Program-made: the position numbers and the translations under genes
Shown here: positions 22,929 through 26,023 of the stretch, piece after piece
How the letters are laid out: each line of letters starts with the position of its first letter
How positions within the stretch are numbered: the stretch's first letter is position 1
The notes under the pieces: model-generated
Told to the model about the DNA's origin: nothing
Database searches by the model: none
Seen by the model: the letters and a program-made list of their open reading frames with translations, nothing else
Assembly: GCA_021797355.1 (NCBI GenBank)
Contig: JAJZZX010000002.1
Location: forward strand, 186,001-250,000
Reading direction: 5' to 3'
DNA length: 64,000 bases
From: Thermoplasmata archaeon
GTDB lineage: Archaea; Thermoplasmatota; Thermoplasmata; Thermoplasmatales; Thermoplasmataceae

Positions 22929-22966
22929 ATATATCTACACACTTTTTATACGGGTTGGAAATAACT

Positions 22967-23569
22967 ATGAAAATGCTGCTCATCCTGGAAGAGTATTTCA
23001 AGGACCACCCAATCAAAAGAAAAGTCGTCGAAGGAATTTTTAACCGCGGAATCTCCATAAAAGAGGGCAGGTTTTATGTTAATGGCATAGAGATATCAAT
23101 CAGCGAAGTAGCCAAGACCTTGGGAGTGAACAGGCGGACAGTTTATGAGACAATAAGGATTATAGAATCAAGGCCAGAAATAAAGGGCCTAATGGAACGA
23201 ATATCCCCCATACCTGACATGGGTACAATAGCACCGCTCATGGGACACCAGACAGTTTTAGTGCAACTTGCTCCAGGTTATTTTGCCTCTGCACTTCCGG
23301 CATTTCTTGATGTAGCCAGGAAGTATGGGTGCTATATCAAGGAAATAATGGGAAGAAACTTTGAGAAAGAGGACACTGTGATCAGGGCGATTTTCTACAG
23401 GACTGTGCCGAAGAAGACATTCGTTGCCTTCTCCGAAATAGACGGCGTCAAGAAGGTAACCGTGGAGACCGCGGAGGATCTGGACCTTGAACCCATCTGC
23501 TCCAAGTGTGAAGTCAGAGTGTGCACAACAAAGCTTTCTTCAAGTCTGTATGCTGACGAAGCCGAGTAA
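22967..23569 (+). CDS. HTH regulator with ACT-like C-terminal domain
   Basis: About 200 residues. The N-terminal helix-turn-helix (ISISEVAKTLGVNRRTVYETIRIIES, about residues 43-68) is followed by a regulatory segment. That segment resembles ACT-containing regulators of amino-acid metabolism (COG2150-like), ending with a Cys pair (CSKCEVRVC). ATG 22967 lies about 20 nt after CTTTTTATAC; a TTG four codons upstream is also in frame. Before IS insertion its 3' end lay about 35 bases from the promoter of the HTH gene at 25073. The DNA target is unknown. Confidence 0.8.
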   Translation: MKMLLILEEYFKDHPIKRKVVEGIFNRGISIKEGRFYVNGIEISISEVAKTLGVNRRTVYETIRIIESRPEIKGLMERISPIPDMGTIAPLMGHQTVLVQLAPGYFASALPAFLDVARKYGCYIKEIMGRNFEKEDTVIRAIFYRTVPKKTFVAFSEIDGVKKVTVETAEDLDLEPICSKCEVRVCTTKLSSSLYADEAE

Positions 23570-23571
23570 TG

Positions 23572-23581
23572 ACTCAGATTC
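23572..23581. repeat. Left target-site duplication of the IS
   Basis: ACTCAGATTC directly outside the left inverted repeat. The identical 10-mer is at 25028-25037, directly outside the right inverted repeat. Confidence 0.85.
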
Positions 23582-23600
23582 TGCTGTGTTGAACAAATAT

Positions 23601-23936
23601 TTAACCTGAATGTAGCTTGAGCTTCTTAACCTCATCTTCATCTGGTATGACTTTCCATGTCCTGTAACTTGATCCGTTCTCTTCCAGGAATTTCTTTATG
23701 ACAGGAAAATCCTCCTCTCTTACAATGAAATTGCCATCTTCATACCTGATGGATGGCACGGAATCCAGTATACCCTTCACATCATAATGATATTTGCCAT
23801 AATTGGATGAGGATCTGTAACCGTAAAGCTTCCTGTATATCCTTGCCTGTTCCTTTCTCTCCATTCCATTGTGCCTGAATGGTATCCACACATGCACAAG
23901 TATTGCCGTATCCAACGATCTTGAATGCACAAACAT
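23601..23936 (-). CDS. Intact passenger ORF of the insertion sequence, unknown function
   Basis: About 111 residues from ATG 23936 to a TAA that is 3 bases inside the left inverted repeat. The sequence is rich in Tyr, Lys and Arg (GMERKEQARIYRKLYGYRSS, SNYGKYHYDVKGILDSVP). It has an acidic/hydrophobic C-terminal half (EDGNFIVREEDFPVIKKFLEE). No cysteines or membrane segments. A TATA-like AAATACATAGTA lies about 28 nt upstream, overlapping the transposase start region. An open frame continues upstream to 24029, but that part overlaps the transposase and looks artificial. It is undamaged although the transposase next to it is broken. Function unknown; perhaps an accessory transposition or regulatory protein. 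Confidence 0.65.
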   Translation of the reverse strand: MFVHSRSLDTAILVHVWIPFRHNGMERKEQARIYRKLYGYRSSSNYGKYHYDVKGILDSVPSIRYEDGNFIVREEDFPVIKKFLEENGSSYRTWKVIPDEDEVKKLKLHSG

Positions 23937-23961
23937 GTAAATATCATTTGGCAATAATACT

Positions 23962-24956
23962 ATGTATTTGCACAGTATTGACACCGAAGACCATGGGAAC
24001 CAAAGGCAGAGTGCAAGGAGATAGGGCAAACATCACAGTGATGAGAGGAACTGGATCGAATACAACGATGAACTTGTCATAAGGGAGAAGATGATCTTCG
24101 ATCTGGATTTCAGGGATCAGTGGGAATCAGAACTAAAAACAATGAACATGGGAAAGAGGGGATCCCCATACCTCTTTCCTGAATCGTTCATGAACCTCAC
24201 GATGATCTGGTACCAGTATCTTGATTACAGGGGACTGGAGGGCATTGCAAGATCCCTGGTTAATCTTGGCATAATACCGTATTATGGTGATTACACAACA
24301 GTTTGGAACAGGATACATGACATGACCTGTTCTGAACATATCAGGCACGGGATATGCAGAGATCGGCACCGATGGCACCGGACTGAAGACAAACAATGCC
24401 TGATCCTACAGGATGACGAAATATTGGGATGCTGATGCCATGAGGAGGAAGCATCTTGTTGTCATAATCACTGCTGAGGTGAAAACGAAAAGGATCATGG
24501 GAATTGAATCCCATGTGGAGGGGACAGGTCCATCTGAACCTGAAGCTGCACAGAAGCATATCTGGGATACCAAGATGAGGGGGATAAGAATCAGCAAATT
24601 ATATGGTGATGGCGCATTCGACGCAAATGATCTCTTTGATCTGATGCATCATATGGGCGCCATGCCCGTGATAAAGATAAGGAAGAATGCCTCCACTGAT
24701 CACAGCAGAGGAACGAAATACTGCGGGAAAGCCATAAGGGAATACCGGGAAAAGGGATACAGACAGTGGGCGAAAGAGAATAACTATGGCATGAGATGGC
24801 CCGGTACTGAAGGAATATTCTCCGCAGTCAAGAGGAAATTCTGGGAGAACTGTGTAAGCCGATCAGCCAAGGGTCTGGAAGCTGAGGGATACCAGAGGCG
24901 GGGTATATGACTATGTAAATTACAGAGCAAAGATGGATGTGAAATCCCTGAATTAA
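23962..24956 (+). pseudogene. Broken DDE transposase
   Basis: Remnant of one transposase gene, about 330 codons, readable across frames. Start ATG 23962; in-frame TAG at 24022-24024; a one-base frame change near 24345-24352; TGA at 24401-24403, possibly from a Trp codon; and another frame change near 24896, before an end VYDYVNYRAKMDVKSLN and TAA at 24954. All three catalytic positions can still be recognised: Asp in EIGTDGTGLK, Asp in KLYGDGAFDANDLF, and Glu in WPGTEGIFSAVKRKFWEN. The product cannot be made as a single chain. Confidence 0.85.
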
Positions 24957-25027
24957 GGGAAAAGCGGCAGGAAATCAAGAGAATAGCTGGCAGTAAAGCT
25001 GATTGGAGATTAATTGTTCAACAGAGC

Positions 25028-25037
25028 ACTCAGATTC
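25028..25037. repeat. Right target-site duplication of the IS
   Basis: ACTCAGATTC, the second copy of the 10-mer at 23572-23581. It ends 5 bases before the TATA-like ATGTTTAAATAC that serves the gene at 25073. Confidence 0.85.
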
Positions 25038-25072
25038 GCAATGTTTAAATACAGAATTTAATAGTTGTTGCC

Positions 25073-26023
25073 GTGGAAGATCGAAGGGTTGCAGTACTTA
25101 ACAAGGTTTTTCGGTCTCTTGTAAGAAGCGGTTTCAACGTTTCTGATCCGACGTTAGGCAACCTGCTCAGCTTTGATCTTATCGCAAGGCGCGAAAGACT
25201 TCGCCTCATAATAAAGATACTCCAGAATATTGATACCTTCAGGGGCTCAAATGCACTGGAGATGATCCGCATTTCAAAATTAACCAGGGGAACTCCCCTT
25301 GTGGTGGGCGAGAAGGCAGGCAACGGTCTGCTTGAAAGGGGAGTTGTGTATTACAGACACAGCATACCCATGCTTTCGGCTGAGAGTTTCCAGGATTACA
25401 TAGAAGGGGAGCAGCCATGCATATCTTCTGGGCCAGGTGGCTTTTATGTATCCATAGATAGCGAAACGCTTCATAGAAAACGGGAAGAGCTGGGCTACTC
25501 AATTGGTTACCTGTCAAACAAGATCGGAGTATCAAGAAGATCCATTTCACTGTATGAAAGCGGAAGCTCAATTACAATTGATATATTTCTAAAACTGGAA
25601 AGGATTCTTGGTGAGGACCTCAGAAAAGGGATAGACCTGACAGAGGTTGCCTCAAATCTTGAAATGCCACAGGATGAGGAGAATATTGCCAATGAGTTCC
25701 TGAGGGAGGTCTTTGAGATAATGATCAGCAACGGGTTCGATTTTCATGCCATGAAAAGGGCTCCCTTTGACGCAATTGCAAGGGAATCTGTTGAGGACTT
25801 CCTTCTTGTGGGCCTCATAGAAACCCTGAACGGCAGAAGGGAAAAGATTGATGCCCTCAGAAACATAAGCAGGATCTTCGAGAACGATGCGTTTCTAGTA
25901 AGCAGGATGCAGACAGAGAAGGAGAACATTGTGGGCTGCCCTGTAATTAGCGTTTCTGAACTAAGGCGGATCGGAGACAGGGATACTCTGCTTAACCTGA
26001 TAGAGAAAAGGAAAATGGACTAA
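25073..26023 (+). CDS. Archaeal HTH transcriptional regulator (COG1395-like)
   Basis: 316 residues. The central XRE/Cro-type helix-turn-helix LHRKREELGYSIGYLSNKIGVSRRSISLYESG (about residues 131-162) lies between an N-terminal domain and a C-terminal domain of unknown ligand. This arrangement is that of the archaeal predicted-regulator family COG1395. The leaderless GTG start at 25073 lies about 25 nt after TTTAAATAC. The stop overlaps the next ATG by one base (TAATG), so it is coupled to the following unknown gene. The IS lies immediately upstream of its TATA box and may have removed upstream activating sequence. Confidence 0.85.
   Translation: MEDRRVAVLNKVFRSLVRSGFNVSDPTLGNLLSFDLIARRERLRLIIKILQNIDTFRGSNALEMIRISKLTRGTPLVVGEKAGNGLLERGVVYYRHSIPMLSAESFQDYIEGEQPCISSGPGGFYVSIDSETLHRKREELGYSIGYLSNKIGVSRRSISLYESGSSITIDIFLKLERILGEDLRKGIDLTEVASNLEMPQDEENIANEFLREVFEIMISNGFDFHAMKRAPFDAIARESVEDFLLVGLIETLNGRREKIDALRNISRIFENDAFLVSRMQTEKENIVGCPVISVSELRRIGDRDTLLNLIEKRKMD

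Follow-up and report, generated by a model that had tools for sequence, protein, structure and literature searches.

What role does the second gene of an insertion sequence play, and why is that gene still readable in a copy whose transposase is dead? The question is posed by a 64,000-nucleotide stretch of DNA from a Thermoplasmata archaeon (the whole of this stretch is referred to below as the window), in which positions 23582-25027 hold a 1,446-bp insertion sequence with inverted ends. On its minus strand, at 23601-23936, the element carries an accessory gene that we call acc. Translation gives 111 codons followed by TAA with zero internal stops, and the stop codon is 1-3 bp from the left inverted repeat; in both respects, and in the contrast between the open frame of acc and the two stops and two frameshifts of the neighboring transposase, the first-pass annotation of this DNA described the locus correctly.

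The element in the window and the fate of its acc gene

The element is flanked by a perfect 10-bp direct repeat, the target-site duplication ACTCAGATTC, at 23572-23581 on the left and at 25028-25037 on the right. Its terminal inverted repeats are at 23582-23600 (TGCTGTGTTGAACAAATAT) and 25008-25027; the two ends (TGCTGTGTTGAACAAATATT / GCTCTGTTGAACAATTAATC) are identical at 16/20 positions with a one-base offset, and among the relatives of the element the inverted-repeat consensus is TGCTSTGTTGAAYRAATA and the target duplications are 8-10 bp long. Divergent to acc, on the plus strand at 24010-24953, lies an IS5-type DDE transposase pseudogene; comparison with intact relatives locates a TAG at codon 3-4 (24022), a +1 frameshift near 24325, a TGA at 24401 and a further +1 frameshift near 24899, and the DDE residues are still present. 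An intact relative (L036) scores 161 bits against the NCBIfam IS5 model NF033579, above its cut-off of 140; the transposase in the window is broken, and for that reason its fragments score under the cut-off of this model, and at its ends the element conforms to the IS5 family, with terminal inverted repeats and a 10-bp target duplication. The divergent region that acc shares with the transposase had been put at about 25 bp; by our measurement it spans ~57-76 bp, from the acc start at 23936 to a transposase start at ~23993-24013.

The acc reading frame is not a chance ORF, since homologues occur in 38 of the 117 genomes of the order, mostly in the same architecture. Its intactness in the window is nevertheless unremarkable by itself: 4-5 transposase lesions per ~945 bp lead one to expect 1.4-1.8 lesions in the 333 bp of acc, and such an expectation leaves none in roughly one case in five (P ~0.17-0.25). 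The first-pass annotation had explained the open frame either by selection in the host or by use of the protein in trans by other copies. The latter is unsupported because the element is single-copy, with no second copy of the acc, transposase or inverted-repeat sequence in this genome. Retention of this copy because the host itself uses acc would suit an open frame beside a transposase with 4-5 lesions, and a dN/dS of 0.21 between the acc genes of the window and of locus L002; against it stand the ease with which chance accounts for the frame, the possibility that the low dN/dS predates the death of the transposase, and the same-genus genomes, in which the site is empty and no orthologue is found. 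The L002 transposase is likewise dead. We consider domestication of this copy very improbable, and chance could have spared the frame without host selection on it; the window acc is probably a relic heading for decay, the one readable gene of a dead, single-copy element.

The genes on either side of the element are adjacent and uninterrupted in four genomes of the same genus (65-68% DNA identity), an adjacency established at the level of genes and not of the exact junction. This flanking pair, which encodes HTH proteins (window 22955-26023), has a second, element-free copy in the same genome (G000:C11:6614-7196, ~67% DNA identity), and a similar pair is also present in same-genus genomes; the pair in the window may have arisen by duplication or by transfer.

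Distribution, transposase partners and selection of the acc family

A profile built from acc finds members in 39 of 390 Thermoplasmatota genomes, a sample that spans the phylum, and in 33 of the 77 genomes of the family; a profile search of genome contigs with a narrower alignment gave 12 loci, all from Thermoplasmatota, and the named records that contain relatives, E-plasma for example, also belong to this phylum. The members share the conserved core FxRKLYGxxxSSxxGKYxYxRxGxLDxIPHxKxxxGVxxxRxxD. Searches of Pfam, NCBIfam, PHROGs and PDB sequences gave no significant match, and plasmid and viral collections gave no relatives, a Rhodococcus piece at E 0.8 in these latter searches being at chance level.

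A persistent association with transposase genes is evident from the neighborhoods of acc. At 53 of the 70 distinct loci (L049 counted) a transposase immediately adjoins acc, and at 47 it is a DDE transposase in divergent orientation, mostly 12-130 bp away; these 47 partners comprise 23 of type IS5a (the type in the window), 16 of a second IS5-like type (IS5b), 7 IS1634 and 1 ISH3-like. At five loci acc lies directly upstream of, and overlaps, an IS66 transposase gene; one locus is a rearranged IS5a remnant, and no transposase is present at 17, among which several lie at the end of a contig. (The neighbor of acc at L088 is a WYL-domain protein and not a transposase, and this locus is counted among the 17.) Partners reach the NCBIfam cut-offs for IS5, IS1634 and IS66, and the IS5b scores fall under the cut-off; the partners fall into two IS5-type groups, IS1634, IS66 and one ISH3-like, a set with no fewer than four unrelated families. 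In the reverse direction, acc is present in 16 of the 17 scored IS5a copies that keep the transposase N-terminus, and the remaining one (L139) has a truncated acc remnant; five related IS5 elements (~35% identity) have no acc.

The gene is also enclosed by the element ends. This is the case in IS5a elements with their target duplications, in IS5b elements (target duplications TAAGATGCC, CCCCCCTGTTG and AGCCACAAGG), in one IS1634 copy with 33-bp arms and the target duplication GGTTTGT, and in the ISH3-like element (target duplication CCTCG). The four IS5b copies examined in E-plasma share a 1,493-bp block that includes acc and is 99.7-99.9% identical, a sign, judged from the sequences, of recent movement together with acc. 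The first-pass annotation had proposed that homologues be sought divergent to DDE transposases within inverted repeats, and this is where most of them lie. With this lasting linkage and no matching family in Pfam, NCBIfam, PHROGs or PDB, its suggestion of an undescribed mobile-element protein is borne out: acc is apparently a conserved, undescribed insertion-sequence protein of Thermoplasmatota, and no description of it was found in a literature search conducted largely outside subscription papers.

Pairwise dN/dS values for acc are 0.04-0.25 in most close pairs and 0.37 in one pair of remnants; values well below 1 had been predicted for an accessory function, and the codon comparisons show the family to be under purifying selection. 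The acc genes of the window and L002 are close (dS 0.56) and their transposases distant (dS 1.46), a gap that suggests exchange of the module between elements. On the acc protein tree, which is limited by few columns and long branches, the members cluster by partner, with 14 label changes when solo copies are included against a shuffled mean of 31, and 7 changes among the transposase-linked rows; there is weak evidence (p-AU 0.036) against the IS1634-linked forms having arisen only once. Among the DDE transposases, several unrelated families have acquired acc.

Some copies stand alone or are fragmentary. At L050 (G052:C29, 1972-2653) two different acc genes lie in tandem on one strand, with no adjoining transposase matched. 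Repeated short fragments that encode only the last ~35 residues of acc occur in several copies per genome in G066 (C3, C19, C23, C32), G073 (C13, C66, C98) and G064 (C10, C40), and may represent short non-autonomous elements that arose from the left end of the acc element. L014 and L020 (G064:C11 and G066:C8) are orthologous solo genes with open frames, whose transposase was lost before the species split. Host domestication was considered for this pair but not adopted: conserved residues are substituted in L020 (V>A, V>A, R>M, E>G), and the closer relative of L014 is another acc copy in its own genome.

Transposase-free copies of this kind bear on whether acc acts on the host. Its target might be one that Thermoplasmatota have in common, such as a chromatin protein or a system for silencing or defence; elements of separate descent within the phylum would then share acc because they face the same target, consistent with its presence in unrelated insertion sequence families and its occurrence, so far, only in Thermoplasmatota and on no plasmid or viral contig, as judged from limited searches outside the phylum. 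However, no solo acc is clearly under selection, open as the L014 and L020 frames are, and the tight overlap of acc with the transposase promoter points to regulation instead. We therefore regard a host-directed function as improbable.

Fold, promoter palindrome and proposed function

AlphaFold models of the window acc and of an IS5b member (pLDDT 85 and 93, respectively) have the order beta-alpha-beta-beta-alpha-beta, and we confidently assign acc a predicted ferredoxin-like fold, an assignment that extends to fold class and not to function. Foldseek returned no convincing structural relative, only generic ferredoxin-like proteins at E >= 0.03, and none of its matches is a structural relative with known DNA binding.

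The divergent promoter region of the window element contains an imperfect palindrome, AATACTATGTATTTGCACAGTATT, at 23956-23979, a candidate operator with p = 0.19 for this copy; its counterpart in the sister copy L139 is AATACTATGCATATGCACAGTATT. Across the family, 22 of 35 representatives have an upstream palindrome at p < 0.05 against dinucleotide shuffles, for a combined value by Fisher's method of 1e-20 that is overstated, the elements being related and not independent. The arms vary among elements and still pair, a self-pairing that is inflated by the choice of the palindromes for pairing. The palindrome is near or at the acc start in IS5b, IS1634 and IS66 elements and near the transposase start in IS5a; a TATA-like box always precedes it, with a spacing compatible with leaderless transcripts (judged by eye, transcript starts unmapped). 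The half-site TTRTG is common to IS5b and IS1634 elements, whose transposases are unrelated, and palindromes are also found upstream of several transposase-free homologues (L050, L088, L089). These two observations suggest, at the level of sequence, that acc recognizes the palindrome as a candidate site. The palindrome may also serve another purpose, as IS5 elements without acc (L147, L148, L150, L152 and L153) have a strong palindrome beside the transposase start, with arms CCCCTGTAT..ATACAGGGG or CCCCTATAT..ATATAGGGG. Among the imperfect pairs of IS5a, G-T on the transposase strand leads by 8 to 1, a bias expected of a hairpin in RNA more than of an operator in DNA.

From these observations we infer that acc is a candidate element-encoded regulator, binding DNA or RNA, of the expression of both genes of the element, and we put the probability of this reading at about one half. 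In the mechanism that we propose, acc, probably as a dimer, would bind the palindrome that, within the promoter region of the two genes, lies between the TATA-like box and a start codon, the bound target being either the palindromic DNA or its RNA hairpin, and binding would limit the expression of both acc and the transposase. A wider and more tentative proposal is that acc is a portable ferredoxin-fold module, captured repeatedly by unrelated DDE insertion sequences of one phylum, that reads element-specific palindromes as DNA or RNA hairpin and controls transposition or is required for it.

Alternatively, acc could have a direct part in transposition itself, for instance in synapse shaping or target choice, functions ascribed to the extra proteins of IS66 and IS21. 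The gene is retained beside all full-length copies of the window's transposase type; in the IS66 elements of the phylum it overlaps the transposase at the position that tnpB holds in bacteria, and none of 60 genomes from the phylum yielded a match to the tnpB family PF05717; and its ferredoxin-like fold carries a conserved basic loop, GKYxYxRxGxLDxIP, all of which is consistent with such a part. Yet a protein whose partners come from at least four unrelated transposase families, and which has switched among them (the 7 label changes on the tree), is not expected to depend on one specific contact; the smaller divergence of acc than of the transposase between the window and L002 argues against tight co-evolution; and related IS5 elements in the same archaeal family manage without acc. 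A direct role is less likely in our judgment, though it is the main rival to regulation of expression, which is the most likely of these functions.

Comparison with known systems

The window element is of the IS5 transposase type (NF033579) and keeps the DDE residues, but differs from the IS5 family in its divergent second gene and its 10-bp target duplication, which is longer than usual in IS5 groups; acc is absent from related IS5 elements of the same family of archaea. Bacterial IS66 elements have tnpB beside the transposase gene, and acc resembles TnpB (PF05717) in being a small protein of similar length whose gene, in this phylum, directly precedes the IS66 transposase gene and overlaps it. 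Unlike TnpB, acc is also carried by IS5, IS1634 and ISH3-like elements, and the PF05717 profile gave zero matches at E < 0.5 among 21 acc members, which places acc outside that family. Tn3-type elements have a divergent transposase/regulator pair, tnpA/tnpR, in which TnpR is a serine recombinase. The arrangement is similar here, with acc a candidate regulator divergent to the transposase and a candidate site in the shared promoter region; however, acc matches no Pfam recombinase family, and no resolution site was seen.

Cas2, VapD, CutA and other ferredoxin-like proteins have the same general fold as that predicted for acc, and Cas2 chains are among its structural matches (TM ~0.43-0.6 by target length), but the Foldseek matches are at E >= 0.03 and PDB holds no significant sequence match. 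A Cas2/VapD-type nuclease was considered for acc and rejected on these grounds and for its lack of the catalytic aspartate that Cas2 and VapD conserve at the end of the first strand.

The ISA1214 family comprises archaeal insertion sequences with two genes and 8-12 bp duplications. It has been reported in Thermoplasmatales (PMC5473848). The window element, archaeal, with two genes and a duplication of similar length, resembles it by description only. Most insertion sequences encode a transposase only, and extra genes are usually restricted to one insertion sequence family. The movement of one small family among two IS5-type groups, IS1634, IS66 and ISH3-like elements suggests a need shared by the mobile DNA of these archaea; acc is a candidate regulator open to test, with putative sites for binding, and its family would account for many of the small hypothetical proteins in the genomes of acid-loving archaea.
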